This document shows, in pieces, positions 4,861 through 61,777 of a stretch of DNA of 64,000 nucleotides (position 1 is the stretch's first letter; each line of letters starts with the position of its first letter). This stretch comes from Terebella lapidaria (lineage: Eukaryota; Annelida; Polychaeta; Terebellida; Terebellidae): NCBI GenBank assembly GCA_949152475.1, contig OX424563.1, forward strand, positions 16,713,001 through 16,777,000. Reading direction: 5' to 3'. The position numbers were made by a program, and so were the translations under genes. The notes under the pieces are model-generated. The model saw nothing but the letters and a program-made list of their open reading frames with translations, had not been told where the DNA came from and ran no database searches.

Positions 4861-5050
4861 GTAACAGGTGAAGTACTATGGCTTGTAGGGTAGCAGAACT
4901 GTTTGGATGATGGGACGTCCGGTGGAGTCTTGCTTGACTCTCCTGACAAGAACTTTGTACATGTAGGATGAGAAGGTTCCACTGCATGGCGAGGGTTTTG
5001 GCTTCCTCTCCTTGGCATGTGGCCTCCTTGGGTATGGGTATGGTTTGGTT

Positions 5051-7271: not shown

Positions 7272-7289
7272 TAGTGTTTTGCTGGGGAA

Positions 7290-41539: not shown

Positions 41540-42889
41540 ATGGATGGTCCAAGACACCTCGAACACACATACTATGAAGTCCAGAAGCAGTCCAGTCAAA
41601 ATTGTGGTTGCCAGTTCAATGCGAAAGCCACTATACAAGATGAGCAATTCCAGAAATTATTGTCGGACATTGATATCACCTATCTGCAGAAGTCGAGGCT
41701 GCTATATGAAGAATGTGACATGGATCTGGTGATGGCTCTCGAACAGCTGCGTGCAAACCTGAAACCGAAGTTCAAGGAAAAAGGTCTTCATGGAGAGGTC
41801 AAACCAATCGGTTCTCTGGTGTCACAATTGAAAACTTCTTGCCTGGACGAAATCGACACAGCATTTTTGATCGACAAGGACGAAGGATACGAGTGTCGTG
41901 CAACTCCTGGCTCACGTGTGTATGACGTGCACAAATCCGAGAGAGGTGATTCATACCCCAGGGAAGTTGGCGCCAGGGCATTGCGAGAGAGTTTCGCCAA
42001 AGATGTTCAAGATATCATGGCTGCCGTCGATCTACCATCCGGCCTTCAGCACAGCGGGTATGCCTCACCAAAGTTCAGTGGTGTGCGGTACAATGGCCCA
42101 GCCACTACAATGCTGCTTACGTGGGATCCAGAGGGAGAAAAACGCGAGATATCAATGGACGTCACTCCCATGCTGCATTTGCCTTTGCAAGACGAATCAG
42201 ATTGGAAGAGCAATATAGCACGTCAAATCAAACAAATAAATAAAGAAATGCCCCATGTGATTTTCCCCTTTGACGGGATATACTTGTTTCCAAATCCCAT
42301 CACTGACCAGTGGGAGCTGACAACGGCATGTTATGAGGCCACCAGTCTGTTAGACCACATTCCTCTTGAAACACCATTCAAAACCAGCATCGTGATGTGC
42401 AAGATTATCGGTAGTAGGATAGCTAAACTCCCAGTACCATCATCAATCACTGAGCTTGCACCATCAAAAGAAATGGAGAATGTGGCGACAATTCTGTCAA
42501 ACCCAGTGGATCATACCCAGGAATCCATGAAATACGGCCATGCTTTCTTAACCCCCGAAAGTGGCAAGGTGCACAGAGAGATGGCGAAAAGGGCGATATC
42601 TATCAACAATGCAGCAATAACACACACTATCCTGAGCTTGACAAACAACATGCCTGGTGCTTTCACATCAACCCACGAACAGAAGAAACACAAAGCCATA
42701 ACAAGAAAGCTGATGATTCATGTATTTGAGCAGTTATCATCAAGCAATACTGCCGCACAGCATTTTTTCCTTGATACCACTATCAGCTTCCACTCTATAG
42801 CTACATGGGCACGTCAAAGTTACGATGCCCGACTGCTTGTAGAAAACCTGAGGATGCAGTGTCTAATGGTGGCATGCATCCTGACGCAC
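41540..42889 (+). CDS. Exon 1: Mab-21/cGAS-like nucleotidyltransferase domain
   Basis: 450 codons ending at donor GTGAGT (42890). The core motif GSLVSQLKTSCLDEIDTAFL has the family pattern GS-x5-K-x5-E-x-D, and ISMDVTPML supplies the third acidic residue (D207). All three metal ligands known to be needed for catalysis in cGAS are therefore present, unlike many Mab-21 proteins. The second half (about residues 330-450) is helical-looking and probably the C-terminal lobe. No zinc-binding insertion like that of vertebrate cGAS is obvious. Without splicing, the frame stops at 42920-42922. Confidence 0.88.
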
Positions 42890-45800
42890 GTGAGTTTTAG
42901 TTCTTTTACGTGTCACGTATAACTACATGTACTATGGAACTACTATTCCCAATCAATGGTACTAGTAACCATTAATAATTGTTGATAAATGCTCATATTT
43001 CAGGGGATAATTGGTTTTGGTGTTGAAGATGAAATCCTATCACTTGAGCAGTACAAAGTGCTGCCGGCACAACTGAGGTATGCTGAAGAGTCATTCCGAG
43101 TCGCCGCTAAGTTTAATGGCGAGAGATGCAATGAAAGCTTCGCTGTTCTTCTCAAGCTCATCAATGCTCTAGGAAACACGTTTGGCGGTATAATACACGT
43201 CTATGACAACGAAAGTGTATTGGAATGTGAACCAGGAAATATGGACCAGCGAAAGCACGGAGAAACTAACCAGACATCCAACATACTGATGTGGCAGGAA
43301 GCCTTCAAAACATTATGTGAATATCATAATGTTCTACCACATGTCACCTTCTTAAATGTGCGACATTACGCCGTTGATCTTCATGTTCGTAGGTTTCCAG
43401 CCAACCTGCCCTTAGTTTTCTACTCGATTGCTGAAACAGATGAAGCAACACCTAAGTCCGTCACCAGAGAGACACATAGATATTATTCCATCACCAATGA
43501 TGGAACAATCAGACACGATACTCCCCTCACTGTGTCAAATACACATGTGAACCAAGACCAGTCAACACAAATCAACAATAGGGTTACAGGACAGCTCACT
43601 TCACGAAACGTCTCTGATATCGAACTTGAAGTTGATATAAAAGACGAGGTGGATAATCCAAATGACGAGAAAGTTGATCCAGATGACGAGATAGATAATC
43701 CAGATGATGGAGCAGATGATCCAGATGATGAAGCAGATGTTCGGAGTGATGAAGCAGGTGATCCAGATGATGAAGCAGGTGATTCAGATGAGGAGGTTTA
43801 TGTTGATGATCGAGATGGTAGTCGAGATGATCAAGATGAAGATAGAGATGGAGAGTCACATGTAGATGACTATAATGACCAGAGTGACTCAACGACATCT
43901 AAAGAAATCCATAATGTCCCTACTGATCAACCAGGAAATAGGACAGAAGCCACACCACCTTCTGTTTTACCGAAATCAGCAGATTGGGTTCGGCTACGAA
44001 AAGAACGATACCAGGTAGGATGGACAACTCATTCTCGAAAATGGGATAAAAACTTGCATCAAGTCAACATAGATATTGAGTCCAGTGTCAGGGACATGGT
44101 GAATCGTGAAACAACAATCCTCAAACCAACAAGGCCGATGACGTTCATACCATCCAAAGAAGCCATACTTCACCGATATCCAGCACTGTCTGTTGCACTA
44201 CAGAAAATCGAACAGCTGATAGGAGTTGACGAGGCAATAGCTATTGCCTGCAATAGTTGGCGAAAACGTGCTGATATCGCCGTTTCAGAGGTATTGGAAG
44301 CACCTAATCATGTACTAGATATATTTGCCTTCACCAGATCGTGCATGATGCACATTTTCTGCTTGATACAAGAAGAGGAAGGTGAAGATGTGTCGGAAGC
44401 CTGGACTTATGTTTTGACACTCGGACAGGCTACAAAACGAGCAGTTTGTTCAGGGCAAAGTTGTGATGTGCACGTCCAGTGTCATGTGTACTCCTGTACA
44501 ACACAAAAGATGATTAGTTCAGATGTGATTGGAGAGAACACGGGCTCCATCACTGACTTGATGTATGAGGTCGCCCACTTGTTGATTCGACAGACATCTT
44601 GTCACAAGGACCGCCTAGGTCATGACCTAAGCATCACCTTGACAGCACAACAGCTGGAAGCTATATTGATATCTATTTGCCACAAATTCGTTCTTGTCGA
44701 AGGACCACCAGGCTGTGGTAAAACATATATGGCTTTCCACGTCTGTGCTCAGTACGAACAACACCAGGTCCTCTACATGTGCTCAACAGTGGCTTTCAAG
44801 GAGTTCCTAAACACCCAGATTGTGTGCACATCAGAGTTAGTCCGTGATGAGAATGACATGAAGGAGCTTTCCAGCAGAGTGAATCTCGCCAATTACAAGT
44901 GCCTGATCATAGATGATGGACATCAATTATGCTTTTCATACAAGACGTGGAAGGCATTCTTTGATATGGCCAAGAAGTATTCATACAGAGTGTACATATT
45001 CATCGATAGCAAGTATCAGAACTTCAAGGAAGTGGACCTCCAACCTCTGAAACGTTGTCTGGATGAGGAAGAGGACAGCGCGATTCAGATCCCACTCTAT
45101 GTGATTCACAGGAACAGCAAGAAGGTCACGTCCTATATCGTGTCAACCGCGGAGGATGACACCAATGGAGACCAGTTAGCATGTTCGTCCCAAATTGATG
45201 GACAAGATGTCGAAGTGCTGTACTTGAACAATGTCTTTGAACGAAGCGAGAGCAACAAGTTATTGCACTTGATAAATTCACTGCTACGTGGACCAAGCAT
45301 TGACAGACATGTTTATGATTCTAAAGATATCGCCATTTTGATTGACACAAGAGAAGCAGAGAAAGATGCTGAACAGCTGATGTCCATAATTCAACATTTC
45401 ATGTCAGGTCTCTCTGTGCATTCGGCTGGCACTTTCCCTGTTACCGGTATCACAGTTGATACTTTAGACAACTTCATGGGATTCGATAGACCTATTTGCC
45501 TGTGTATTTCCCGTGAGTGGAAGATGGACATCGGGACAAAACTGAAAACACTTCTGTTAAAAAAGCTTCCAGAACGACACCTGCTGAATCCTAAGTACAA
45601 AACCTTTGTAGCTTCCCGAGGTGTGTCAAGTGTCCGTTTCATAATAGACCAGCCCGTCAGTGCTGAAGTAGCAACAACAATGCAGATGGATTCAATTCAA
45701 ACTGTAAGTACAAATCGGAAACGATCAGTGGTACTAGTACCCACAAATAAATTGATAACAGGTTTGAATAATGTGGATAATGATAACGACTTTCATCCCC

Positions 45801-48800
45801 CCTGTCTCCTGCCACCGTTTACTCTACGTGTACGATGTATTTTTGTGTATTTCATTCAGAAACCCCGCCATCTCTGGACGAAGAATATTATGATCCGCGA
45901 CATGAGTTGGTTATCTACAGCTGGCACTAGTGCTTTGTTGTATACTACAGGCTCGAGTATACGTCTCCTTTCAAGCAACGAAGAACATCTTCCACTTGAG
46001 ATGGATATCAGCAATATAGAGAACCCAGAGCTTCTCGCTAGTACCCAAGATGGAGAGTTGATTGTGGTGGCTGATCCTAAAAACCATAGTTGGACTGTGT
46101 TCAGAAGACAAACTGGCTTCGTGTACAGGCAAAAGGCCTCCTACTCCGTCAATGGTGAACCAAGGGCCATTCGTTGGACGCCAGACAATGATGTGATCAT
46201 GCTAGTGCTTCAGGTGGGTTCATGAATTTTTGTGCGAGTTTTCAATACTAGTATATTTATGCACGCTTGTGGTCTCGTGCATGCTCGCTTGGAAACCACT
46301 GTCGCGATATCCTGACTTTAGACGCATTAAGGCATTTCAACAGACTTGATGTATATTTGCAAGAAAAAGAAGCCTATTTTTAAGCCTGTTTATAGCAGCA
46401 TCTGGGATCCATGAGGTCCATAGGGATGCGACCTATCGAATTTGGATCTGAAGAAAATTAAGCTGAGTCTCCCTGCATATCTATCTCATATCTATCTCTA
46501 TCATTGTGTGTCATAGGGTGAAACAGACATTTTTCGGATTCATCACCCTAGACAAACATCTCTTTGGGGAATTAGGTTTGAACATTTTCCTTGGCTTAAT
46601 TTCTTTCATGCTGAGTCAGTCGTATTTTGTCGTAATTAGTCTAGGGTTTAATATATTCCCGGTTTTCCGGGAACCGGGAATAAAAACTGCTCAGAACCGG
46701 GTACCCGGGAATGGAACCGGGAATAAACTCGTAGCTTCAAAACAATAGCACACATGAATTGGTTCGTTAGTTATCACTCCAGACACTATGTGTCAACGAG
46801 TTTTCCTTATAAATCACCATGCAACCACGCTTACAGGAATTTATAAAGCAAGCAAATGTAAAAATGGGTGAAATCAGAATTTCAAAATCCTAATTTACGT
46901 TGGAGGTATGATGTAACAGGAGAGGGCTCACAAGTTCACAACCCTCCCCCGTCTTTGTTCATATTTAATATGGACACAAATATTGTGAAGGGACAAGTCG
47001 CTGGGTGGTCCCACTGTTACATTAAGTCTAGTTTTAGATTTAAAAAAAAATACCCAAGGTGTCTACCAAGGTTATTTTTACCTTATTTTGGCCATACATT
47101 GTAATGCTATACCACAGAGTGTTGTAGGAAATGCACAGGAACGAAAGATACCTCTGTTTTCTTCTGTTTATATGTAGTTTTTTCTTGGGGGAGGGGGCGA
47201 TATATTCCCGGTTCCTGGCCACCTTATTCCGGGGAAACGGGAACTCTGATATCTTGATAATTCCCGGGAATTCCATTCCCGGGATTAAACCCTAATTTAG
47301 TCGATATCTTAGAAATGGTGTGTCGTGAAGTGGGAGAGACAGAATCGAGGCCCTAGACGAAGATGTGTCTTGAGGGTACATAAACATGTCTCAAGGGTAT
47401 TATAAAGGTCTACATGTAGGTATTAGGGATCCCGATGCTTCACACCAAAATGCCTCCAGGCTTATAGGCATCGACACTAGTTTAGTTTCCCTTCAAATCC
47501 TCAGGATGTTTGGACGCGGTCTTTTAATCACTCGTTGAAGTGTTATAGCAGATGAATGTTAGGGGGCATCACTGCTCACTCGATTCAGGGGTGTATACGT
47601 TTTCATGGACACGTCCATTTGAAATTGAAATTAGCGTGAGATTTGAGTTTTTGAACGATAACTTCAGATTGCTATCAGCAGTAGTGACGTGTACGCGTAC
47701 TGCACTGTACGTTGGAGATTCATATTTTTTCAAGTCGGCTTGTGCATTCACATGTACATGAAGCTCTTGGAATCGGCTTGAGTACAGGTAGGGGACTAAA
47801 TATCGAACAGCACCAAATGTCGAACACAATTTTTAATTTTAGCAGTACTCAAAAAGCATCAAATTAAATGAAAATTTTATGAGTAAGATTTGATTATATC
47901 TCACATTTGTATGCTCATGTGCCATAAGTTGTGATTTACGCTCATTATTTTCTGAGCACTGACAACATTAAAAACTGTGTTCGACATTTGGTGCTGTTCG
48001 ACGTTTAGTCCTCTACCTGTATTCATTTCAGTGATTTCTGAATGATACAAGTAACCATTCAGACAAAGAATACCAATCATGCATGAAAATTCAAATGCTG
48101 TCAGGATACAAGAAAGCACCATATTTTTTTGGCCTCTGTCCATCGTTCCATCTTGACTCAGGGGCGAAAAGTTGCGATTCAAGACATCTGGAGTCTCTTT
48201 GATGCGTATGTAATCGACTCTGGCTCGCTTCAGTCGAACAAGTCATCGAGGGTATTTCGGATTGACATAGCATGATGCTCTAAACCGGAACGTTTCTAGG
48301 CTTTGTTATGCTTCGACGTATGCTGATATATCTCAGGAAATAATCAAATAATGAGTGATGTACACGGAGAACAAAACATTTGGTTTTGTGGAATCATATT
48401 ATGCCAGTATGTTTTATATTGTGCAACGGTAATTCTCCATGTTGCATGTTGGATGTAGTCATGTACATTTTAAACTGTCGTGCCTACTCGACGTGTTTTC
48501 TTTCTTTTCTGGTCTGTTTCGTTCTTTTTGCGCAATTTTCCTACCCAGACTACTGAGCTCATCTGTTGGATAACGACTTCAAATGGCGAATATCTCCACT
48601 GGTTGCCGAAGTGTATGACATTTTTGAAGAGCCACCGAACCCTCTTCTGAAAAAATCCTTCATTTTTCCCGTGCATTTACAAGTGTATGTCCCTACTATC
48701 GACGCTGTATCACTATCATACAGCGTACAATATTTTATGGTGCTAATGGAAATCATGTACATCACTAAATCTAGCCAGGGTTTCAGCAGGAGAAAGGATC

Positions 48801-49407
48801 TTTCATTGGTAAAGTGTTGGGTAAGCCACAGCAAGACCATTAGCTTTTCCTTTCCCATCCATAATTAGAATGTATTAGTAATTTTTATCAGTCACAGGCT
48901 CCGCAGTTGAACCAACTGCTCACGGTTGGCCACAGATGCGATCTGCAGAGGTACCGAGGCGCTGATGGCCACCTGATCTGGAAAGTGTGGGATGTCCGTT
49001 GTGTGTCTGACCATTTTTCTGTAACGCCAGACGATGGACGTGTTCTGCTCGCAAAAAGCTGCGCTGTTCTCGTATATAGTTCCAGTGGATCATACATCGA
49101 CGAACTAGAACAGCCTGGTTATATTGCAGATCGATGGAGAGCACCAAGCAGTAGTGCTGGACCAATTTCGGCAATGTGTGAAGTAGGATGCGACAAGTGG
49201 TTCACTGCGCACGTGGTAGCATATAGTAGTACATCGACGTACTGTTCAGTCCGCTTTTGGGGCAGTGATCACACATTGGAACCTGAACGTCCACTGGTCG
49301 ATACTGAAGCGAGAATCCTGGACCTGGCTCTGACTGAGGACAGATTTCTGGCCATACGTACGTCGTATAGTATTCACGTCTACAACGTAGAGGGAGTTCT
49401 GTGGTGA
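41540..49407 (+). CDS. cGAS-like nucleotidyltransferase / Schlafen-type helicase / beta-propeller fusion protein (isoform with last exon A)
   Basis: Model: 41540-42889, 43004-45703, 45860-46213, then 48898-49407; all junctions phase 0, about 1,637 residues. The ATG at 41540 follows an in-frame TGA (41522-41524) and has G at -3 and +4. Domains: Mab-21/cGAS-like nucleotidyltransferase (about 85-330; GS at 91-92, E104-x-D106, D207); helical segment to 450; Schlafen/AlbA-like segment (about 471-525, ending NALGNTFGGIIHVYD); acidic D/E linker (655-745); SF1 NTPase (Walker A GPPGCGKT 1017-1024, Walker B LIIDDGH 1084-1090, HRN 1152-1154, VDTLDNFMGFD 1268-1278, FVASRG 1318-1323); propeller-like repeats (about 1360 to end). 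cGAS-like enzymes make second-messenger nucleotides upon sensing nucleic acid; Schlafens restrict viruses and cleave tRNA. The joint function here is inference. No signal peptide or membrane segment is apparent. Confidence 0.85.
43004..45703 (+). CDS. Exon 2: Schlafen/AlbA-like segment, acidic linker and SF1 helicase-like NTPase
   Basis: Acceptor CATATTTCAG ends at 43003; exactly 900 codons to donor GTAAGT at 45704. The start resembles the Schlafen core (AEESFRVAAKF, then LLKLINALGNTFGGIIHVYD). In Schlafens the motif is usually V-E-F-K with a catalytic glutamate; here it is V-A-A-K, so nuclease activity may be lost. About 90 Asp/Glu-rich residues follow. The NTPase has LTAQQ (Q-motif-like), GPPGCGKT, LIIDDGHQ, FIDSKYQ, HRNS, VDTLDNFMGFD and SRG, the order of Schlafen-type SF1 proteins. 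Walker B has DDGH where helicases usually have DExQ, so ATP hydrolysis should be tested rather than assumed. Confidence 0.85.
45704..45859 (+). other. In-frame 156-bp intron (or retained segment)
   Basis: Donor GTAAGTAC and acceptor TTTCATTCAG bound 156 bp with no stop codon. Because 156 is a multiple of three the frame stays open through it, so a simple ORF reading hides it. The internal residues are low in homology and interrupt the join between helicase and propeller, favouring removal. Retention would add 52 residues. Confidence 0.75.
45860..46213 (+). CDS. Exon 3: first beta-propeller-like blades
   Basis: 118 codons, phase 0 at both ends; donor GTGGGT at 46214. Repeats of the type SALLYTTGSSIRLLS, ELIVVADPKNHSWTVF and EPRAIRWTPDNDVIMLV alternate short hydrophobic strands with turns, as in WD40/NHL-like propellers. 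It has no stop and must be completed by a downstream exon; each of 48898, 50761, 56215 and 61280 fits in phase. Confidence 0.8.
46430..47505 (+). mobile_element. Helitron-like copy IV, diverged
   Basis: Diverged pieces of the 147-bp unit (GACAAACATCTCTTTGGGG; GTCGATATCTTAGAAATGGT) end in AAAATGCCTCCAGGCTTATA then GGCATCGACACTAG, a decayed version of the hairpin-plus-CTAG end. It is interrupted by a hAT-type MITE. Confidence 0.55.
46642..47294. mobile_element. hAT-type MITE
   Basis: The ends are inverse: TAGGGTTTAATATATTCCCG and, read backwards from the right, TAGGGTTTAATCCCGGGAAT. Flanks AATTAGTC (46634-46641) and ATTTAGTC (47295-47302) match at 7 of 8 positions, an aged 8-bp target duplication typical of hAT elements. 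Length 653 bp, no transposase. Confidence 0.75.
47783..48021. mobile_element. Tc1/mariner-type MITE
   Basis: About 240 bp with inverted ends of about 45 bp (TACAGGTAGGGGACTAAAT; GAACAGCACCAAATGTCGAA) flanked by TA. TA duplication and short size fit a mariner-derived MITE. Confidence 0.7.
48898..49407 (+). CDS. Alternative last exon A: propeller C-terminus
   Basis: Acceptor TCAGTCACAG ends at 48897; 169 codons and stop TGA (49405-49407). It contains YRGADGHLIWKVWDVR, FSVTPDDGRVLLAK, VLVYSSSGSYIDEL, VDTEARILDLALTEDRFLAI and ends HVYNVEGVLW. It has an 11-residue longer start than the other versions. Subfamily 1, with exon C. Being nearest the donor, it is the default partner of exon 3. Confidence 0.82.
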   Translation, partial: APQLNQLLTVGHRCDLQRYRGADGHLIWKVWDVRCVSDHFSVTPDDGRVLLAKSCAVLVYSSSGSYIDELEQPGYIADRWRAPSSSAGPISAMCEVGCDKWFTAHVVAYSSTSTYCSVRFWGSDHTLEPERPLVDTEARILDLALTEDRFLAIRTSYSIHVYNVEGVLW

Positions 49408-50760
49408 TCTGCTCAACTCATCAACTGATAATATGACTTTCACAAATCACGTTTCAATTGAATTAGGCCCAACATATATGTAGCACTTCCTAGGATTGTG
49501 TCATGGCCACTTGATTACTACTTTTACAGCTTACATCGTCTTGAACACGTCAACATTTGCGCCTTCACAAGATTCCAGCTTGTGTTGAGTGACTGAACAC
49601 TGGAGGCAAAGGAATTTCGCCATAGAGTCATGTTATGCACAAATGTTACTCAATTTACAGTGGCAATTATTTTTGTTCAGCAATTATAATATATTTATAC
49701 CTGAACATATCACTGATGAACTGCTTCCTGTGCCATACAAGGGAGATAGACATTCATCTGATAACAAACTACAACCGACACAGCTTCCATGATTGTGCTT
49801 GATTATCTGACTATTTAATTTGTGTTAAAGTGATATGGTCACATGTCTGCTTGTGTAGATGTTCATGTCAATATGTACTTGTATATTCTCAGCTGTACAG
49901 GGGAGTAGCAAAGTAATATATTGGAAGATGCATGTTTATATTGCTTTTTCATAACAAAAACCTGATGTTTCAAAATACCCAACAGCTTTTTAATCGTGTA
50001 CATAGTAGCCAGACAACAAGCTTTCTCGTGAATAGAATAGATAATAGAAAAGAATTTTTCGCACTGCCTCAAGTGTATATACATACAAACATAATACTAA
50101 CGATACAGAGCAGTCACGAGATGATGGGCTTGAGTCACTAAATGTAATGTAGAGGCATATATTTTATAAGCTAATCCACGACCCAACTGCATTGGTAACT
50201 GTGTAAGTAAAGATTTATTCAATACCATATTCAGTGGGAATACACGAAAAAACATGAAATGGTACATACATGATACATTTCATACCAGTATGTATAATTA
50301 TTATCCAGTGAAGCATTTTAGTGGTTATGACACTTCGATACACTTAAACTTCTCGCCATATTTAGTATGCATGAATATTGCGCTGTTAGATAGCGCTGTT
50401 TGACAAACGTGTCCTCTGCGTAGACAGTTCTAGAGCGAGATACAATTTGAGTCGGCAGATGGTTGCCGCATGTACTGAGAACTGGCCAGATTGCTCACGG
50501 AGCCGGAAACCATCTATATTATGTATGTATTCTCATGCCCACCTGTGGAAAACAGGCAATGAGCAGTTGCTCATTAAAAACATTCAGTACAACTGAGTGT
50601 GCCAATATGTATAACATCGAGGGATTCCTGGCTAGAATGTATTCACCACGTTATGACCGAATAAATTACAATATGCAACGCAATATTTCAACTGTATTGT
50701 GTTGAATGTTGGACGTTATATAAGCAAAGCTTTTTATACTATTTGGTATCATTATTACAG

Positions 50761-51225
50761 GATGGACAGGAGAAGCGACTGCGGAGATATAGAGTCACTG
50801 ACGGCCACCTGTTGTGGGAGCATACTTTCCACTTCCTTGTTGATGTCTGGTTGGCTGTAGCTCCTGAAGATGGACACATTTTGCTCGGTTACAGCTTCAT
50901 GATCTACATCTATAGTGCAAGTGGGAAGCAGATTCGAATAACAACCTTGTCCAGACTTTTCTCTTTATCATATCCCGATGACAGCACTCCTATCTCTGTA
51001 AATCCCATGAGCAACGACACGTGGGTAACTGCTAACGAGTTCTTCGGGAACAAAATTTGGAAATGGGATCCCGGGAATGCGAGCTTGCTGATTGATACAG
51101 GAGAGGAGGTGGTCCGGGACACAGCACTGTCTAGGGACAGACTTCTCGCGGTACACACACTCGGTCACCATCCCCGCAGTGTCCACAAACTCAGTGTGTA
51201 TGATGTCGAAGGGGCCCTGCAGTAA
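50761..51225 (+). CDS. Alternative last exon B: propeller C-terminus
   Basis: Acceptor ATTATTACAG ends at 50760; 154 codons and stop TAA (51223-51225). It contains RRYRVTDGHLLWEHTFHF, LAVAPEDGHILLGYS, IYIYSASGKQIRI, LLIDTGEEVVRDTALSRDRL and ends LSVYDVEGALQ. Subfamily 2, with exon E and the decayed copy at 57.2 kb. There is no donor-like end: it can only be terminal. A possible ATTAAA signal lies at about 51317. Confidence 0.8.
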   Translation, partial: DGQEKRLRRYRVTDGHLLWEHTFHFLVDVWLAVAPEDGHILLGYSFMIYIYSASGKQIRITTLSRLFSLSYPDDSTPISVNPMSNDTWVTANEFFGNKIWKWDPGNASLLIDTGEEVVRDTALSRDRLLAVHTLGHHPRSVHKLSVYDVEGALQ

Positions 51226-51970
51226 CATTCGCTCCCCTCACATTGAAAAGGTTTTATGATGTTATACAAGGACTACTGACCAATAACCTATCGTGAAATC
51301 ATGTTTCCTTTTGTATAATTAAATGCATGAATAGAACTTGAGCCTGAACTTCACCCAGATGGCCTTGGCTGCATGGTGAACTCCAAGATCATACTTGCAG
51401 TTAAAACTGAAATTGTCCGGTGACCTATCTTAGTCCTTGGGCTAATGTTAATATGTTACAGACCATGGTTCAATAACCTATTGGCATAGCGTCCGTCCGT
51501 CCGTCGTCCCTCTTTTCGTCTGTCCACATATTTGAATGGGTTGTGGATTTTTTTCTTGAAATTTTTGCACAAAAATACCTGAAATTATTTTAAAAAGACG
51601 TTTTTATTTGAACTGGCAGTCGTTTCAGACAGCAAATGTCCCATTTTCGGGTCGTTTTCTCAAAATCCATTCATACAATTTTTTTCCCAACTCGTGCACT
51701 GGGATCCGCATATGTGCCTAGGTCTGTGAAGTTATGAGTTTCGTTTCCCTTGATTCGCCTGCCGATATATTTTCCGACAGATTGACAAAAAATCAGTCCA
51801 AACTAAGAAAACATACGTTATTTTCAGCTGAAGAGAATGGAGAGAGTGAAATGGACTCATGATCTGTCTCGTTGCTCTAGACGAATATATATGACATCCT
51901 GCTGAATCTCGTATTGGACGTCGAAAGCAAGAAAGCATGAGATCTAGTTTTTGACTAGAATACATTTGCT
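51226..51970 (+). other. 3' flank of exon B
   Basis: The first ~100 bp (CGTGAAATCATGTTTCCTTT; TATAATTAAATGCATGAATA) match the flank of the decayed exon at 57.4 kb, so the duplication covered non-coding flank too. No gene is seen in the rest. Confidence 0.6.
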
Positions 51971-51972
51971 CC

Positions 51973-54900
51973 TTCATTAAGGCATTTCGGCAGAAATGCC
52001 TTTATGGTTTTAGCAGAATTTTTTTTTTTTTTCTTCTTCTTCTTCTTCTTCCGCCACTTTTGGTTTCCGGACGATAACTTTAGTTTTCCTTGACGGATCC
52101 TCGTCAAATTTTCACCACAAGTAAGAAATGATATGTGGAAGAACCCTATTCTTTTTGAGCCGGATCCGAGGTCCGTGAGGATGAAATCAAGACTAATTTT
52201 GAGACTTGGTTTCCGGACGATAACTGCAAAAATATTGACGCAATAGTTGCAGAACTCTGCATGGAGGTTCATATGCCACCAGGGAAGAACCCTATTGATT
52301 TTGGGATCGATCCGTCAAACGACCTTTGACCTAGAGGTCGAAATAATTTTTTGCTGATTCATCCTTGAGGCTTCCTGCATATCTCAGAAACCGTGCATCG
52401 TAGAGCGAAACGGACGTTATTTTCGGACTCGTCGCCCTAGACAAACATCTCTAGGGTGTATTATTGTATCCCCCGAACAAAGTTCGGCGGATACTATGGA
52501 TTTACGATCGTCGCGCCGCCGCCGCCGCCGCCGCCGCGTCCGCAGACACTTTCTTGTGAACGCGCTACAGCTTGCAAATCTGAACCGATTTTGATAATAT
52601 TTTACATGCCTTATGTATTATGTTTTGTCTTATGGTGAGATCACGACACCTATCGATTTTGGTTGCCATAGCAACCAAAATAGCCGATTGGCGTAACATT
52701 TTGTGCTCAAATTAGCCTGTTTAGCACACATGGGTTGTGAACGCTCTACGGGTGGGAGTTTTCGATGAATGATGATGAAATTGCACAGGCTCAATGAGAA
52801 AGACCCTCACACGAAACCTATTGTTTTTCAGAATGATCGAATAAATATTAATAAGTTTGAGAGGTTAACTTATTACGACAATTAACATACCTACTTTGAC
52901 GTGTGATCACTCCAATAACCTGTACTATGAAAGCAAATTGCACTGGATTCTTGTTCAGAATACAGAACTGATGTTTTTGGTGAAAACAAAACATTATTAC
53001 TGAATAAGTTAACATTGGTTTTACTAGTTAAGTCTATTATTGACCACAATAAAAATAGTTAAGACAAGAAACATTTATTATTGAGCTCAACAAGGTAAAC
53101 GTTTTGTCCAGTAGAGATTTCACAGGTGTTACCGAATAAGTTAACATTATTTTTACTAGTTAAGTCTATTATTGACCTCAAGAAAAATAGTTAAGACAAG
53201 AAACATTTATTATTGGGCTCAACGAGGTAAAGCTTTTGTGCAGTAAAGATTTCATGGCTGTAACCGAATAAGTTAACATCATTTTTACTAGTTAAGTCTA
53301 TTATTGACCTCAAGAAAAATAGTTGAAACAAGAAACATTTATTATTGAGCTCAACAATTTAAAAGTTTTGTCCAGTAGAGATTTCATGGGTGTGACCGGA
53401 TAAGATTATTTTTACCAGTAAAGTCAATTTTTACTTCGAATTTCAGCTTGAAACCCAATCTGGCACATAATATGAGTTGAAATATAACTTATGGTGAAAA
53501 GTTCGATCTGGCTCCAATTTAGTCATCTTGAAATGCAGTTTTTGTCAACTTTGAATTTCAACTTGGAACCAAGTTTGTCAAATATTCTGAGTTGAAATAT
53601 AACTTTAGGTGAAAACTTTATCTGGCTGTAATTTTGTTATTTTATCGAACATGTCGAAATGGAAATTCGTGTGCAGTGATTTCAGTGGTGATCGTGATTT
53701 CGACCTTCAATAAGCTTGAAAGGTTTCACACTCACAATGTACATCAGTAATATATTTGGGGCAACAGTGATGATAGGGCTACGGGGAATACACCCAAGCG
53801 GTCGTAGGCGACCGAAAGCGAAGTTTTTTTTGATCCGGCTCCGAGGTCCGTGAGGTCCTTGAGGATGAAATCGAGGCTGATCTTGAAACTTGGTTTCCGG
53901 ACGATAACTCGAAAAATATTCGGGCAATAGTTGCAGAATTTTGCACGGAGGTTTATATATCAACAGGGAAGAACCCTATTGATTTTGGGATCGATACGTC
54001 AAACGACCTTTGACCTAGAGGTCGAAATAATTTTTTGCTGATTCATCCTTGAGGCTTCCTGCATATCTCGGAAACCGTGCATCGTAGAGCGAAACGGACG
54101 TCATTTTCGGACTCGTCTCCCTAGACAAACATGTCTAAGGGGTATCATTGATGAACTTTGACCTTGACCCGAAATTTTTTTGCCGAGTCGGTATTTTTCG
54201 TTTTCGTTGATATCTCGGAAACGGTGCTTTGTTGAGCGAAACGGACGTTATTTTCGGAATCGTCGCCCTAGACAAACATGTCTAAGGGGTATTATGGATG
54301 AAGATTGACCTTGACCCGAATTTTTTTTGCCGAGTCGGCATTTTTCGTGTTCGTCGATATCTCGGAAACGGTGCGTCGTAGAGTGAAACGGACGTTGCGT
54401 CGTAGAGTGAAACGGACGTTATTTTCGGACCCGTTGCCTTAGACAAACATGGGGTATTATTGATGAACTTTGACCTTGACCTGAAATTTTTTTGCCGAGT
54501 CGGCATTTTTCGTTTTTGTCGATATCTCGGAAACGGTGCTTCGTAGAGCGAAACGGACATTATTTTCCGACTCGTCACCCTAGACAAATATGTCTTAAGG
54601 GTATTATGGATGAACTTTGACCTTGACCCGGAATTTTTTTGCCGAGTCGGCATTTTTCGTTTTCGTCGATATCTCGGAAACGGTGTGTCGTAGAGCGAAA
54701 CGGACGTTATTTTCGGACTCGTCGCCCTAGACAAACATGTCTAAGGGGTATTATTGATGAACTTTGATGAATATTATTGATGAACTACGATTGCCGAGTC
54801 GGCATTTTTCGTTTTCGTCGATATCTCGGAAACGGTGCGTCGTAGAGCGAAACGGACGTTATTTTCGGACTCGTCGCCCTAGACAAACATGTCTGAGGGG

Positions 54901-56205
54901 TATTATTGATGAACTTTGACCTTGACCTGAAATTTTTTTGCCAAGTCAGCATTTTTCGTTTTCGTCGATATCTCGGAAACGGTGCTTCGTAGAGCGAAAC
55001 GGACGTTATTTTCGGACTCGTCGCCCTAGACAAATATGTCTTAAGGGTATTATGGATGAACTTTGACCTTGACCCGAAATTTTTTTGCCGAGTCGGCATT
55101 TTTCGTTTTCGTCGATATCTCGGGAACGGTGTGTCGTAGAGCGAAACAGACGTTATTTTCGGACTCGTCGCCCTAGACAAATATGTCTTAAGGGTATTAT
55201 GGATGAACTTTGACCTTGACCCGAAATTTTTTTGCCGAGTCAGCATTTTTCGTTTTCGTCGATATCTCGGAAACGGTGCTTCGTAGAGCGAAATGGGCGT
55301 TATTTTCGGACTCGTCGCCCTAGACAAACATGTCTAAGGGGTATTATGGATGAACTTTGACCTTGACCTGAAATTTTTTTGCCGAGTCGGCATTTCTCGT
55401 TTTCGTCAATATCTCGGGAATGATGTGTTGTAGAGCGAAACGGACGTTATTTTCGGACTCGTCGCCCTAGACAAACATGTCTAAGGGGTACTATGGATGA
55501 ACTTTGACCTTGACCCGAAATTTTTTTGCCGAGTCGGCATTTCTCGTCTTCGTCGATATCTCGGAAACGATGCTTCGTAGAGCGAAACGGACGTTATTTT
55601 CGGACTCGTCGCCCTAGACAAACATGTCTAATTGGTATTATGGATGAACTTTGACCTTGACCCGAAATGTTTTTGCCGAGTCGGCATTTTTCGTTTTCGT
55701 CGATATCTCGGAAACGGTGCGTCGTAGAGCGAAACGGATGTTATTTTCGGACTCGTCGCCCCAGACAAAGATGTCTTATAAGTAATATGGATGAACTTTG
55801 ACCTTGACTCAAACTTTTTTTGCCGAGTCGGCATTTTTCGTTTTCGTCGATATCTCGGAAACGGTGCGTCGTAGAGCGAAACAAACGTTATTTTCGGACT
55901 CGTCGCTCTAGACAACATTTATCTTATATGTATTATGGATGAACTTTGACCTTGACTAAAAAATTTATTGCCGAGTTGGCATTTTTCGTTTTCGTCGATA
56001 TCTCGGAAAAGGTGAGTCGTAGAGCGAAACGGACTTTTTTTTCGGACTCGTCGCCCTAGACAAACATGTCTAAGGGGTATTATTTTAACGGTAATTTTTT
56101 TTTGTGGAGTCGACATTTTTCATTTTCGTCGATATCTAGTATATATTATAAATTAATCATCACACCGAAATGCCTCCAAGGCATCTTTAGGCCTTGACGT
56201 CTAGT
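51973..56205 (+). mobile_element. Helitron-like copy V, both ends present, 147-bp array
   Basis: The 5' palindrome AAGGCATTTCGGCAGAAATG (51979-51998) precedes a (TTC)n tract and leader. A second leader copy starts at about 53830 after an inserted repeat. About a dozen units of 147 bp run from 54.1 to 56.1 kb. The 3' end is AAATGCCTCCAAGGCATCTT (hairpin, 56168-56187), then GCCTTGACGTCTAG with CTAG at 56201-56204. Palindrome at each end, internal minisatellite and hairpin-CTAG terminus fit non-autonomous Helitron/Helentron elements. No Rep/helicase gene. Confidence 0.75.
52466..53825. mobile_element. Repeat inserted within copy V
   Basis: It begins TGTATCCCCCGAACAAAGTT with a hairpin and a (GCC)n tract (about 52514-52536). 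It carries three tandem units of about 130 bp (ATAAGTTAACATTATTTTTA; CTATTATTGACCTCAAG; about 53005-53400) and ends near GGGGAATACACCCAAGCGGT. No coding domain. Element class unknown. Confidence 0.5.
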
Positions 56206-56214
56206 TATCAACAG

Positions 56215-56691
56215 CCTCTCAGACGAAACGGGCTCAGGAAGTACAGCGGCAATGACGGCCGTCTGATATGGGATGTTATGGATGTCGGCTCTGTCTCTCA
56301 CTGCCTTTGTGTGACTTCTGACGACGGTCAAGTTCTGCTGCCTGAGGGTCGAGTTGTCCACATCTACAATACCAACGGTAAACACGTTCGTGACGATGGT
56401 AGCGAATACACATTCACGTGTTCCCTTGGGCTGGTCACGGCATTATGTGCAGACAGGAATGATGAATGGTTCTATGCACGTGATAGACCTCGCAGCCTGG
56501 AGCAGTTTGGCTCGTATATCTATTTCTGGACGAAAAGGGAAACTACTGATTACGAGACCGAACAATTCGAACCTTCGCTGATAGACACAGATCAAAGAGT
56601 CTTGGACCTGGCCCTATTCGCTGATCGACTCCTCGCCATACGTACAGCCCAGTGTATCCATGTGTACAACGTAGAGGGGATGTTTGCTTAG
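56215..56691 (+). CDS. Alternative last exon C: propeller C-terminus
   Basis: 158 codons, stop TAG (56689-56691). The start at 56215 (acceptor TTATCAACAG) gives exactly the same distance to the conserved (R/K)Y as exon B. An upstream in-frame acceptor (CATCTTTAG, 56190) would add eight residues from the transposon. It contains RKYSGNDGRLIWDVMDVG, CVTSDDGQVLLPEGRVVHIY, LIDTDQRVLDLALFADRLLA and ends HVYNVEGMFA. Subfamily 1, with exon A. A polyadenylation signal AATAAA lies at 56854-56859. Confidence 0.8.
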   Translation, partial: PLRRNGLRKYSGNDGRLIWDVMDVGSVSHCLCVTSDDGQVLLPEGRVVHIYNTNGKHVRDDGSEYTFTCSLGLVTALCADRNDEWFYARDRPRSLEQFGSYIYFWTKRETTDYETEQFEPSLIDTDQRVLDLALFADRLLAIRTAQCIHVYNVEGMFA

Positions 56692-56853
56692 TCTCTCTGA
56701 GAGACTGTGAAGAAATGTTGGCCAGCATAACCTCAAAGAAAAAGAGGCGGAACTCTATAAGTGTTCCTATGCGATAAGCAAGAACATTTTATTGTGTTAT
56801 CCATGTAATCTGAATATATTCATCATTTTTGTATGTTTACATTGATTTTACTA

Positions 56854-56859
56854 AATAAA
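56854..56859 (+). terminator. Polyadenylation signal after exon C
   Basis: AATAAA 163 bp after the stop codon of exon C, consistent with exon C being used as a true 3'-terminal exon. Confidence 0.5.
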
Positions 56860-57169
56860 CTCAATCAATCAATAGAAACTGGTCTCCTAGCATTGTAGTC
56901 ATATCACCCTGAGTTTCTCGAGTTAGAAGTGCTCAGTCACGCATTTTTGTGAGAGTACGGCCAGTTATCGATATTACACTCTTTGATAACCTTTGAATGT
57001 TTAGTATTTTGTGTGTTACCGGTGTATTTGAGGCATAATTCCCAGTTGATTTTACAATGCACAGTTGGTATTTGAGCCAGCACCAAACCTGGTTTGAATT
57101 TATTAAAGTTTACTTATTTTACAACAATTGATGGATAAATACATTTTTCTTGGTTCATCATCCACATCC

Positions 57170-57465
57170 ATAGTTCAAGTTGGAAGGAGACTCGGAAAAC
57201 AAACATGGTCATGTTTTTTCCCTTTATCTTCTACCGCTCTCAGCCCTTCTTTATCTGTAAATTCTATAAGCAATGACACATCTGGGAGTGGGATCCCAGG
57301 AACAGGCACTTGCTGATTGATACAGGAGAGGAGGTGGTCCGGGACACAGCACTGTCTGGGGACAGGCTCTACGATGTTACACCATATACAACTGAACATT
57401 AAACTATCGTGTAGTCATGTTTCCGTTTGTATAATTAAATGCATGGATAGTTTGATTGCATTCAG
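57170..57465 (+). pseudogene. Decayed last-exon copy (D)
   Basis: It matches exon B in pieces: CTTTATCTTCTACC...TCTGTAAATTCTATAAGCAA, GGGATCCCAGGAACAGGCAC, then TTGCTGATTGATACAGGAGA and GGTGGTCCGGGACACAGCAC, followed by the B-type 3' flank (TATAATTAAATGCATGGATA). The 5' half including the acceptor is missing, an internal deletion removes about 60 bp, and the 3' end is truncated after GACAGGCTC. It cannot encode a propeller end. Confidence 0.85.
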
Positions 57466-57619
57466 CTCTCCAAATTCCTGGCTTTGAGGTGTCTGACATC
57501 GGCATACATTGTGAAAAAACATTTGGGTGATTATATACAGAGTACATTCATTGTAATAGTGTATTGTCAACGCGCCTAATCACTGCATGAATATGAAATA
57601 TGTTAACATTATACGGCAT

Positions 57620-57775
57620 TATATAAATACAACCCTGCATGTATATTGGCACAGCGGATTATTCCCCGAGGGAGAAATTACTGCCCGAGCCGTAAGCCGA
57701 GGGTGGAAATGTCTCACGAGGGGAATAATCCGCGGTACCAATATGCATGCAGGGTTGTATTTATTATAGTATACA
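57620..57775. repeat. Foldback hairpin repeat
   Basis: Left arm ATACAACCCTGCATGTATAT...GCGGATTATTCCCC and right arm GGGGAATAATCCGCGGTACC...GCATGCAGGGTTGTAT are inverse copies of about 45-50 bp around a loop of about 50 bp. Probably a small foldback transposon. Confidence 0.75.
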
Positions 57776-57849
57776 GAATGTCTGATTTGATGAAACGTCA
57801 TTGACGAATAAAGGCGGGAACACACCTGTCCGGTTTGTGTATCAAGTTA

Positions 57850-58045
57850 ACAACCCGTACAATGTAAATCATTCGTTTGGCTCTAGTAGAGCGTATTGCT
57901 TGACGTGTGTTGGCCAATCACAGAGCGTGATTCTTACATGAGGTATCATATATCAAATTACCAGCCGGTAAATCGTTTTTTGCGGTCGGCTCCAGCAGAG
58001 CGTATTACTTCACGTGTATTGGCCAATCACAGAGAGTAAGAACAT
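57850..58045. repeat. Local direct duplication
   Basis: Two diverged copies share GGCTCTAGTAGAGCGTATTG, ACGTGT(G/A)TTGGCCAATCACAGAG. The CCAAT-type motif recurs in both. Confidence 0.65.
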
Positions 58046-58265
58046 TTTGCGCGTTCCCTCGTTCAAATGCGATGCTTTCGCGCTCACATGCTATCTTTTC
58101 GCGTTCCCTCGCAAAGTTTTCGCGTTCGAACACAATCTTTGTGCGTTCCCTCGCGATAGGATTGATTGTGCTGACGCCAATGACGTCTGAATAGGTTCTG
58201 CTATACGATTGCACTCGAACGCGAAAATATCGTGACGGAACGCGAAAGATCGGATTCGAACGCGG
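58045..58265. repeat. Clustered GCGTTCCCTCGC repeats, direct and inverted
   Basis: The motif (C/G)CGTTC(C)(C/G)...CGCG recurs about four times rightward (58048-58155) and three times inverted (58215-58262, e.g. GAACGCGAAA), forming an irregular foldback. Function unknown. Confidence 0.6.
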
Positions 58266-58819
58266 ATTTTTTTTATTTTTTTCACTCCGTAGCCGAGAAA
58301 CACATTGACAAAAGAAAAAACGGTAACATTGCATTTTCAATGTTTATTGTCAATATATTTCTCATTTCTAAAGCGACATAACAGCAGGTTTACAGTTTCT
58401 TGACTGTGATCAGTTGAGAGAATCTGCTCAGAATTCCACTTTTACCCGTGTAAATACAGCGTATATATCTGGTTAGCAAAAGGATTAAAATTAATCCATG
58501 GCACCAGTCATTGGTTGTTTTCATCAGATATATCCTGACGTGAAACGAGCCTCATGTGAAAAACCGGGAATCAACTCCATATTCATGAATGTAGATATAT
58601 TGTGTTCAAGGTTGGCATTCAAATCTTCGATTCACTGATTGTATAGTGAGGTTCCTGCGCGTCGCATTTAATGTGAGCATGAAGAGCGGGAAATGAGTAT
58701 AAGTCTTCTTAGAATTGTTTTTGCGCTATCCATGGTGTAATGTTGATACATGTGTCTTGGGCCTACTTGTAAGTGTTGTACGTGAGATAAACTAGCCAAA
58801 TCCGATTAAAATAGTAGCA

Positions 58820-58970
58820 GCATGAACAAGGACCCGACTTTACGCTGTATGAACGCTGCATGAACCCGACTTTACGCTGTATGAACGCTGCATGGACCCG
58901 ACTTTACGCTGCATGAACGCTGCATGAACCCGACTTTACGCTGAACGCTGCATGAACCCGACTTTGCTCA
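58820..58970. repeat. Short tandem repeat CATGAACCCGACTTTACGCTG
   Basis: Five near-perfect units of about 25-34 bp built from ACCCGACTTTACGCTG and (T/C)ATGAACGCTG. Confidence 0.85.
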
Positions 58971-59040
58971 TTGCTGTATTTCGGATGTCATCTCTGGCGG
59001 GATGCGCTTGGTATATCCATTGTCTTAAATATTAACATTA

Positions 59041-60199
59041 AAAATTAGGCCAAGGGCCGAAGATAGGTTACCGGACAATGTTTAATATTTTAGATGTTAG
59101 CCAGGTCACTGGTCAAGAGAATATTCAGCATATATAATATTAAGCATATATCATGTCCACAGTTGATTGCTAAGTTGTAAATTCAATAATCAGAGAGATA
59201 TTAGCAATTTTGTGCTGTGGCCTTGAAAATGAAGGCAAAGGTCAAATTTAAGGTAATCAAAATATTCAGTGTATATCATTTTTTATATGTCCACAATTGA
59301 TTCCCGAGACATACAGTCAATAGAGGAGCAAGATATGAGCCATTTTGTCCTGTGACCTTGAAAATGAGGTCAGAGGTCAAATTCAAGGTCACGAGAATAT
59401 TCAGCATATATCATCCTATATGTCCACAATTGATTCCTAAGCTGTAAAATCCATAATAAGTGAGATATTAGCCATTTTGTTCTATGACCTTGAAAATGGG
59501 GTCGAAGGTCAAATTCAAGGTCACGAGAATATTCAGCATATATCATTTCCTATATGTCCACAATTGATTCCTAAGCTGAAGAGTCGATAATAAGCGAGAT
59601 ACAAGCCATTTTGTGCTCTGACCTTGAAACTGAGGTCAGAGGTCAAATTCAAGGTCACGAGAATATTCAGCATATATCATTTCCTATATGTCCACAATTG
59701 ATTCCTAGTCTCTGATATCAATATTAAGTGAGATATTAGGCATAATGTGTCCCATTATAAAGCATAGGAGAATTTAACATGGGAAAGTCCCATTTGGGCC
59801 GAGTTTGGGCCAAAATGGCCCACTTCGAGCGATTCAAGCGCAACGAAATTCATAGACATCATATGAGTAGATATGAAGAGTGTTATGTATCAAAAAGAAA
59901 AAAAGTTACTGAACAGATTTTGAGAAAATGGCAGCCAAAGTAAAAAAAATCAGGCATTTTTCATCGAAAACGGCCGCCATTTTGAAAAAAATGTGAAAAT
60001 CAAAAAACTAAAAAATACCTCCTTCTTGAATTATTTTTAAGTATTTTTGTGCAAAATTTCAGAAAAATTCGCCCGTAAACAAAAATGATAAAAATGTGGA
60101 CGACGACGACGACGACGGACGACGACGGACGACGGACGCCGGACGACGGACGCAACGCCATGCCAATAGGTTATCGGACCATAGGGCCGGTAACCTAAA
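59041..60199. mobile_element. Satellite-bearing TIR element, copy 2
   Basis: Same family and orientation as 30827-32572: inverse-like ends (AGGTTACCGG, CCGGTAACCT), about five to six 134-bp units, GGGCCGAGTTTGGGCC block, (GAC)n tract and CCATGCCAATAGGTTA. Non-autonomous. Confidence 0.8.
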
Positions 60200-60599
60200 A
60201 ACCGGTGTGCGTGTTCTTGATATGGACTAGAATATGGGGGTCCCCATGCTACTTGTCACAACAGGCACTCAAATTATTCGATGGTTAGAAAATGATACAC
60301 AGTTTTGACAACACATTTAGGAGAGCGAACATGCACACCGGTTAGTTGATGGGTACCATTATCTGAAAAAATTGCAGCCCATTTTCCAGGTATTTTGAAT
60401 GATAATTACCTATATTTTCACATTGGAGAGAATATCTCCGATATGTTCAAAATTTCTGATTAAGAATGCAGAATGTCGTTTTGATGATCATTTAAAATCG
60501 GGAAATAATCAAGGAAATCACAATATTAGTAGCCCTTCTAAGTACATAATTCAATATATTGATCTTTTCAGTGAAGGAACCAAACTATAATTCAAGAAT

Positions 60600-61054
60600 A
60601 TATTCACCCCATATGGCCGAATAAATTATATTCCCGACGTTGTCATTGGTTAAAAGCAGGTCACGTGTCTTTGCATAAAAGTACACATTCACCAGACCAG
60701 CCGGTGAAGTTTTTTTGATATTCACCGATCAGTCCATATCACATAAATGCACCTCTCGCCAAAGAGCAACTCTGGCCAAATGCTTTTTCATGATTGTTTT
60801 CTTTTTCTTACTATTGTGTATCCAGTGATATAGTGAATTGAATGAGCTTGATTCAGAAATCATTCCTCGTTTGTTTATAGTGTTCCTGAAATATTGACAT
60901 CAAACTGAAATCTAAAGGCCTGACTGGCGCAGTACTGATTCGAATCAACACATGATAGTTTTAGATGTATTATGTTTATATCATACATCCATGTCATACA
61001 TAAACATTGCTTCAGTATTTGCATGAACTTTACACATGTATTATATAATAAAAC
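60600..61054. other. Upstream flank of exon E
   Basis: No gene. The stretch TATTCACCCCATATGGCCGA then ATAAATTA matches TATTCACCACGTTATGACCG then AATAAATTA before exon B (about 50640-50670). The flank is interrupted before the exon by a hairpin repeat. Confidence 0.5.
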
Positions 61055-61195
61055 AAATATTAACTTTTGGTTTCGGTGAATACGTGAAAATATGTACCTC
61101 TCACAAAAGACATATTCACCTCGCAAGCTCGGTCAATATGTCTTTTGCGAGAGGTACATATTTTCACGTATTCACCGAAACCAAAAGTCGATATT
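61055..61195. repeat. Near-perfect inverted repeat, ~60-bp arms
   Basis: Arms 61055-61116 and 61135-61195 (core ACTTTTGGTTTCGGTGAATA, CGTGAAAATATGTACCTCTC) are inverse with only a few mismatches, around an ~18-bp loop. It lies 85 bp before the acceptor of exon E, inside sequence duplicated from the exon B flank, so it was inserted after that duplication. Confidence 0.9.
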
Positions 61196-61279
61196 TGTAT
61201 AATATGCAATGCAAAAGTTCAATCGCATTGTTTTGAATGTTGGACGCCTTATGAAGGCCCGGGTACTTTATTATTACAG

Positions 61280-61777
61280 AATAGATGGAAGAAGCAACTG
61301 CTGAGATGCAGAGTCACTGATGGCCACCTGTGGTGGGAGGTGTCGGTTCACGGTCGTATGTCTGACTGGCTGGCTGTAACTCCTGACCAAGGACACATTT
61401 TGATCGGTGAAATATGTACCGTCCATATATATAATCCCAGTGGGGAGTGGATAGGTATGCGATTATCAATATCGACCGGTTCTGCTTCCTTCTCAATTCC
61501 TCACGCCATCAAGTGTTTAAGCCCTGTGAGAAATAACACGTGGCTATTTGTCAACAAGTCCTTCAGGTCTACAATAGTCTGGATGCTTAATGCCAGTGAC
61601 ACGAGCTTGCTGATTGATACGGGAGAGGAGGCGGTCCGGGGCCTGGCGCTGTTCGGGGACAGACTTCTCGCGGTACGCACACTTGACAAGTTTGTGGATG
61701 GTCGCCATCCTCATGGTGTCCGCAAACTCAGTGTGTATGATGTCGAAGGCGCCCTGCAGCAAAATCTGCTCCCTTAA
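61280..61777 (+). CDS. Alternative last exon E: propeller C-terminus
   Basis: Acceptor TTATTATTACAG ends at 61279; 165 codons and stop TAA (61775-61777). It contains LRCRVTDGHLWWEVSVHG, LAVTPDQGHILIGEI, VHIYNPSGEWIGM, LLIDTGEEAVRGLALFGDRL and ends LSVYDVEGALQQNLLP. Subfamily 2, closest to exon B, with the same acceptor and upstream flank (TTGAATGTTGGACG). A polyadenylation signal AATAAA lies at about 62160. It is about 15 kb from exon 3, so its use in the same transcript is the least certain. Confidence 0.72.
   Translation, partial: NRWKKQLLRCRVTDGHLWWEVSVHGRMSDWLAVTPDQGHILIGEICTVHIYNPSGEWIGMRLSISTGSASFSIPHAIKCLSPVRNNTWLFVNKSFRSTIVWMLNASDTSLLIDTGEEAVRGLALFGDRLLAVRTLDKFVDGRHPHGVRKLSVYDVEGALQQNLLP

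Follow-up and report, generated by a model that had tools for sequence, protein, structure and literature searches.

A 64,000-nucleotide stretch of the genome of the polychaete Terebella lapidaria (assembly GCA_949152475.1, contig OX424563.1, positions 16,713,001 to 16,777,000 of the forward strand; hereafter the window, with feature positions counted from its first letter) contains a predicted gene that joins a cGAS-like nucleotidyltransferase (NTase), a Schlafen group III unit that has lost its ribonuclease (RNase) lobe and a WD40-type propeller, and that ends in an array of four intact terminal exons (Table 1). On balance, this gene probably belongs to a large family of intracellular receptors built of three parts, with the propeller as the sensor, the Schlafen unit as the switch and the NTase as the effector; the sequences point to a so far undescribed intracellular immune receptor family. 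More tentatively, and short of a reading that we would favour outright, it may represent a new animal immune receptor class that assembles the logic of NOD-like receptors from different components: a WD40 sensor with a hypervariable face, an ATPase switch of the Schlafen type, a messenger-making cGAS-like effector replacing an ancestral tRNA-cleaving lobe, and four alternative last exons.

The first three exons (E1, E2 and E3) are open on the plus strand of the window and are joined in phase 0 throughout; the two introns measure 114 and 156 bases and have consensus GT-AG ends. The longest open frame among 200 base shuffles of E2 was 181 codons, as opposed to 900 in the real exon. Each of the four intact terminal exons, designated A1, B1, A2 and B2, is open, is preceded by a phase-0 CAG acceptor and closes with a homologously placed stop, and the spliced products predicted with each of them (1637, 1622, 1626 and 1633 amino acids, respectively) contain no internal stops. 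In all seven paralogs examined (L002-L008), the acceptor and donor of E2 are found at homologous phase-0 places. No additional copy of E1, E2 or E3 was detected inside the window in a search at E values up to 0.01. The layout and the conserved splice sites thus join the predicted NTase, Schlafen unit and propeller in one gene.

The same arrangement recurs in the 762-Mb assembly containing the window, which was searched for relatives; genome-wide locus counts are all minimum figures, since only the best candidates receive a score in the search. With exons 2-3 as the query, a close NTase exon (at least 45% identity) was found upstream and on the same strand at 29 of the 43 helicase loci scored, within 1.3 kb in 26 cases and at 11-22 kb in three, on seven contigs. 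A divergent helicase used as the query recovered at least 108 Schlafen-type helicase loci, and NTase matches number at least 99. A cGAS-like NTase match lies no more than 5 kb upstream on the same strand at 32 of these 108 loci, as opposed to none of 108 in the control arrangement (opposite strand or downstream); at 30 kb the corresponding figures are 36 and two. Seen from the NTase side, a Schlafen-type helicase adjoins eight of 22 divergent NTases in the 4-8 kb read beside each, and two more have one at 13-17 kb. In a paralog on C8, the NTase, E2, E3 and one terminal exon all fall inside about 5 kb. Such loci make the predicted fusion a gene family with dozens of related genes in this genome, rather than one oddity or a chance neighbourhood. 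The initial annotation of the window, which placed an NTase with an intact GS...ExD...D motif, a Schlafen segment, an SF1-type NTPase and a propeller in one gene with four intact last exons, is upheld on both counts by the phase-0 joins, the splice sites, the genome-wide pairing and the homologous ends of the terminal exons, among which one further, decayed copy was found.

Several loci of this family depart from the common layout. At C9:30021835, stops interrupt the NTase match as well as the helicase match. Four NTase matches at C1:84.41 Mb (L028, L074) lie 2196 bases apart with identical or nearly identical scores; they stem either from tandem duplication in the recent past or from a repeat in the assembly. 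A gag-pol-like frame (L075:1111-5022, plus strand) interrupts the NTase exon in one of the C16 paralogs, which makes this copy a probable pseudogene. A divergent NTase-Schlafen-helicase gene is followed at about 2 kb, on the same strand, by ankyrin-like repeats recognised by eye (L068:177-575, minus strand); they suggest that C-terminal modules vary in the family, which would fit exchangeable sensor modules.

The E1 sequence of the window alone has no match in PDB or Pfam, the Pfam Mab-21 family included, and a profile of ten close NTase members found nothing convincing in PDB. A profile of 17 diverse NTase members (profile A2, not to be confused with terminal exon A2) recovered cGAS in an hmmsearch of PDB at E=1e-12. 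Of the 42 distinct chains that it matched at E up to 1, all are labelled cGAS bar six, namely two chains of cGAS-like receptor 1 (1.7e-5 and 0.12), two labelled 'Nucleotidyltransferase' (0.44 and 0.51) and two labelled 'Uncharacterized protein'; the MAB21L1 label is on none of them. Pfam Mab-21 is matched by seven of the ten close members (E up to 1, best 7.7e-4) and by seven of the 17 diverse ones (E up to 0.1, best 6.3e-6). The window and nine close paralogs align without any difference at residues G91, S92, E104, D106 and D207; across the 17 diverse members G91, S92, D106 and D207 are invariant and E104 nearly so, and the spacing from GS to E is that of cGAS. As judged from these profiles and residues, E1 is a cGAS-like NTase with intact catalytic residues.

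A profile of eight E2 sequences over the linker and helicase matched SLFN11 (3.3e-10) and SLFN5 (2.4e-8), and Pfam SLFN-g3_helicase was found in all eight members scanned (best 3.4e-8), with the window itself at 21.8 bits, under the cut-off of 24. Family profiles bear out the nucleotidyltransferase and Schlafen assignments of the initial annotation. Its separate 'Schlafen-like segment' and 'SF1 NTPase' are both present, but by profile similarity they belong together as a single Schlafen group III unit, and the RNase lobe of that unit appears to have been lost. In a Pfam scan nSTAND3 scored 24.8 bits against a cut-off of 27.2, over the P-loop region only; by its NTPase the predicted protein is not a NOD-like receptor or STAND protein, though it may work like one.

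The Schlafen core of the window is reduced to a first lobe that is recognised by motif alone; the window's sequence has no match to Pfam here. SLFN_AlbA_2, the two-lobed core, is in neither the Pfam table of the window nor those of two fused members scanned singly, and is not among the families listed (25 of 26) for eight fused members; it was found in all four unfused relatives scanned (E=1.9e-8 to 2e-4), in two of them above the cut-off. Likewise, the RNase motif E-x4-E-x-K followed by a GG motif is present in all five NTase-free relatives read, where, as aligned for L042, it corresponds to E209, E214 and K216 of SLFN11, the residues needed for tRNA cleavage (PMC9482658). The combination is absent from all 12 close fused genes read (represented by 13 rows, of which five are partial; L007 and L022 are one gene) and from all eight divergent fused genes, three of the close ones having E-x4-E-x-K without the following GG motif. 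Two divergent fused copies on C16 (L065 and L075) keep the lobe shape and the GG motif and have V, E and P where relatives have E, E and K; they have therefore kept one of the three essential residues. In a tree from which divergent fused genes were left out, the helicases of fused (8 rows) and unfused (5 rows) genes form two groups with support of 100/100. This looks like a stepwise effector swap, in which an NTase would have been gained while the RNase was lost, as seen in a small unfused sample (five genes read, whereas 72 helicase loci lack any NTase match up to 30 kb away).

For the 3' part of the gene, a profile of 20 terminal exons including the window's four (profile A4) recovered 196 chains from PDB with E values of 1 or less (best 6.6e-11), and the best 60 of the 196 are WD40 propellers, joined by a small number of NHL propellers and one dynein-tail chain. 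Pfam WD40 was matched above its cut-off by the terminal exon of L049; of the other four terminal exons scanned, three matched below the cut-off and one not at all, and the window's own terminal exons did not match this family. The terminal exons are, by this profile, WD40-propeller sequence, and exon 3 is probably the first propeller part.

Variation among the paralogs is concentrated at a few propeller codons, and this observation is solid. In 20 paralog terminal exons (a set that omits those of L005, L048, L049 and L050, which are too divergent, and that of L054, which has no stop at the usual place), changes concentrate at 12 of 145 consensus codons (24-26, 31, 46, 70, 72, 87, 113, 115, 130 and 131). 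These 12, chosen by their variation, have mean replacement (dN) and silent (dS) divergences of 1.11 and 0.40, as opposed to 0.081 and 0.133 for the other 133 codons, and account for about 39% of replacement differences when ten disjoint pairs are compared; median pairwise values for the whole exon are 0.111 and 0.054. In held-out pairs, the replacement rate of the chosen codons was about five times that of the rest in both halves. By eye, the variable codons coincide with x-hydrophobic-x and GHxDG positions in the repeats, which we take to be propeller turns. Within the same seven C13 genes (a matched set that leaves out the gene of L024 and includes only about the first 420 codons of E2 for four of the seven), the ratio of replacement to silent differences per site (pN/pS) is 0.35 in the NTase, 0.56 in the Schlafen/helicase part and 2.48 (95% interval 1.40-5.38) in the terminal exon. 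In these genes pS is 0.033 in the terminal exon as opposed to 0.29 in E1, which points to homogenisation between genes. Positive selection on the propeller codons is suggested by such values, not proved.

The terminal exons of the window gene follow the order A1, B1, A2, decayed B, B2, which looks like repeated duplication of an A-B pair. In a tree of terminal exons, from which L054 was left out, A1 groups with A2 (98/91) and B1 with B2 (100/98), and A and B stand apart, with a long-branch warning. Exchangeable use of these last exons, as read from the layout, is plausible but unproved. The gene could instead use a single terminal exon, perhaps the nearest (A1), the others being surplus duplicates nearing decay; we hold this to be possible, if on the unlikely side. 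Within 120 kb of 29 close fused genes, one terminal exon was found in 24, two in one (L054), none in three and four in the window gene, and the prevalence of single exons, the second exon of L054, which is without the usual stop, and the decayed copy in the window would all fit such a history. Against it, acceptor, frame and stop are kept in all four intact copies even though B1 and B2 differ at 52% of their residues and A and B at about two thirds, and dN between B1 and B2 (0.39) is below dS (0.59). Because 24 of the 29 close fused genes have one terminal exon, exon choice would be a local elaboration. At L065 on C16, E3-like sequence matches twice and the gene has a pair of nearly identical terminal exons; duplication of the terminal part has therefore arisen more than once in the family.

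The variable WD40 propeller appears to be a better candidate sensor than the NTase, which would then be the effector. It is unlikely that the NTase itself is a nucleic-acid sensor as in cGAS, with the Schlafen helicase presenting or remodelling RNA or DNA and the propeller only a scaffold. Such a protein would be consistent with cGAS as the best structural relative of the E1 family profile, with the binding of nucleic acid by Schlafens (PMC9482658, PMC8789055) and with isoelectric points (pI) of 8.39-8.56, one of them above 8.5, in three of 11 fused NTases. However, pI is 7.4 or lower in the other eight and 6.14 in the window NTase, which falls outside the basic range (pI above 8.5) of nucleic-acid-sensing cGAS-like receptors (cGLRs), and some acidic cGLRs are thought to respond to other ligands (PMC9980059). 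A putative zinc-thumb-like pattern is found in none of 23 NTase members including the window, and replacement changes in the seven paralogs are relatively enriched in the terminal exon, not in the NTase. Given this pI and the lack of a zinc-thumb-like motif, nucleic-acid sensing, one of the two activities proposed in the initial annotation, is not favoured for the NTase. The variable C-terminal recognition propeller of the same annotation stands as far as WD40 sequence and variable codons in paralogs are concerned; recognition itself we infer.

No enzymatic product is known for several proteins of the Mab-21 family, and the window gene might by analogy encode a nuclease-dead Schlafen regulator with a structural NTase, like that of MAB21L proteins, that makes no messenger. 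We regard this as quite improbable in view of the invariant catalytic residues of the window and its nine close paralogs, the purifying selection on the NTase exon implied by its low pN/pS in the seven paralogs, and the matches of the family profile to cGAS and cGLR1 chains, none of the 42 chains bearing the MAB21L1 label. We give almost no credence to the proposal that a cGAS-like gene is followed by a separate Schlafen gene, with the downstream WD exons owned by others: terminal exons do lie up to 85 kb from E2 in one paralog, but the E3 match stands beside a terminal exon in 19 of 25 paralog loci and the C8 paralog is compact, and separate genes and chance neighbours alike were rejected on the conserved splice sites and the genome-wide pairing.

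In the three-part receptor that we favour, the hypervariable face of the C-terminal propeller would recognise a ligand, and the Schlafen group III ATPase/helicase with its shortened core would serve as a switch or oligomerisation platform. The N-terminal cGAS-like NTase, then released or assembled, would make a nucleotide second messenger to be read by STING proteins of the same genome or by another receptor, and the four terminal exons of the window gene would provide four alternative sensor faces on one signalling body. The direction of signalling, its chemistry and product, the ligand and the four faces are what we infer. STING_LBD matches were found on three contigs of the genome, so cyclic-dinucleotide receptors are present.

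A number of observations weigh against this model. The second acid of Walker B is Asp in place of Glu, as in human SLFN5, for which ATP was bound and hydrolysis not seen (PMC8789055). Over all 20 terminal exons pN/pS is 1.02 (0.77-1.32), over ten disjoint pairs it is 1.04 and not significant, and of the two halves of the held-out test one was significant (P 0.032) and the other not (P 0.32). The variation was measured on paralogs, not on the window's own exons, and gene conversion also shapes the terminal exons. Finally, structure prediction yielded no usable model, with confidence values (pLDDT) of 34.9 for E1 alone and 36.8 for B1 with the other terminal exons of the window. Should the model hold, two antiviral families, the cGAS-like enzymes and the Schlafens, would be linked in one molecule, and evolution would have exchanged an RNase lobe for a messenger synthase on the same ATPase chassis. 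The question of what activates those acidic animal cGLRs that are unlike nucleic-acid sensors becomes testable in this family, with a candidate sensor attached and its variable positions named.

Fungal NWD/HNWD NOD-like receptors carry N-terminal effectors of cell death, as opposed to the cGAS-like enzyme of the window gene. They share with it an NTPase followed by a C-terminal WD40 propeller, paired hypervariable codons at propeller turns and repeats homogenised across the gene family, and differ in having a NACHT NTPase and near-identical repeats where the annelid gene has a Schlafen helicase and divergent blades; in fungal NWD genes the paired codons lie on the upper face of the propeller and are positively selected, with concerted evolution (PMC1805685). 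With Schlafen group III proteins (SLFN11, SLFN5; PMC9482658, PMC8789055) the window gene shares the linker, the SF1-type helicase and, with SLFN5, the Walker B Asp, and this genome's own Schlafen relatives retain the RNase E-x4-E-x-K; in the fused gene, by contrast, the RNase lobe is gone, an NTase stands in front and a WD40 propeller behind. Animal cGLRs likewise have the GS..E.D..D NTase of the cGAS kind, an expanded family and STING genes in the same genome. According to PMC9980059, 87% of published cGLRs have no appended domain, and the additions described there are ankyrin, TPR, death or further cGLR domains, as opposed to the Schlafen and WD40 parts seen here. That paper is not among the open-licence literature holding both 'schlafen' and 'cglr'. 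In agreement with the initial annotation, which knew of no protein combining a cGAS-like enzyme with a Schlafen, no description of an NTase-Schlafen-WD40 protein was found in the open-licence literature, by title and abstract start, among the matches listed. Neither the full spliced protein nor profile A2 had a homologue in the protein collections searched, which are collections without eukaryotic proteins.

Table 1. Features of the predicted NTase-Schlafen-WD40 gene in the window
Feature	Position	Strand	Evidence or remark
Exon 1: cGAS/Mab-21-like nucleotidyltransferase, 450 codons, ATG start	41540..42889	+	Profile A2 against PDB, cGAS E=1e-12
NTase active-site motif G91 S92, E104, D106, D207	41810..42160	+	Paralog alignments
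Intron 1, GTGAGT...TTTCAG, phase 0	42890..43003	+	E2 acceptor kept in 7/7 paralogs
Exon 2: Schlafen first core lobe, acidic linker, Schlafen linker, group III helicase; 900 codons	43004..45703	+	
Remnant first lobe of Schlafen core, motif ...LINALGNTFGGIIHVYD...	43073..43228	+	Motif common to full-core relatives L038-L042
Acidic linker, 41% D+E, partly 21-base tandem repeat	43604..43963	+	Site of Schlafen RNase lobe in relatives
Walker A GPPGCGKT of Schlafen-type helicase	44702..44725	+	Invariant in 8 sequences but for one position
Walker B CLIIDDGH, second acid Asp	44900..44923	+	Alignment; same residue in human SLFN5
Intron 2, GTAAGT...ATTCAG, phase 0	45704..45859	+	Donor kept in 7/7 paralogs
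Exon 3: probable first propeller part, 118 codons	45860..46213	+	Homologous exon before terminal exon in 19/25 paralog loci
Terminal exon A1, part of WD40-type propeller	48898..49407	+	No AATAAA or ATTAAA within 1 kb
Terminal exon B1	50761..51225	+	ATTAAA 93 bases past stop
Terminal exon A2	56215..56691	+	Pairs with A1 (98/91); AATAAA 163 bases past stop
Decayed B-type terminal exon	57154..57390	+	tblastn E=6e-14, with stop and losses
Terminal exon B2	61280..61777	+	Pairs with B1 (100/98); AATAAA 383 bases past stop

Two further candidates in the terminal-exon region were dropped: a possible second decayed exon near 48550, and a weak match near 50.6 kb (E=0.07, as opposed to a best of 0.10 for the reversed-sequence control). 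Rfam and tRNA scans of the window found nothing. Between B1 and A2, within the terminal-exon array, lies a tandem array of a 147-base unit (54063-56083, about 13.6 copies), and further 147-base arrays are present at 1198-1563 and 29347-29714. A 172-base satellite occurs 5' of the gene at 37501-38438 and 40097-40557. Elsewhere in the window, an open frame with a lysine/glutamate-rich stretch (17416-17802) looks like the first protein-coding exon of a gene for a myosin regulatory light chain, and the minus strand at 4141-7923 carries fragmented retroelement-like frames, integrase-like and reverse-transcriptase-like by eye, in repeated copies.

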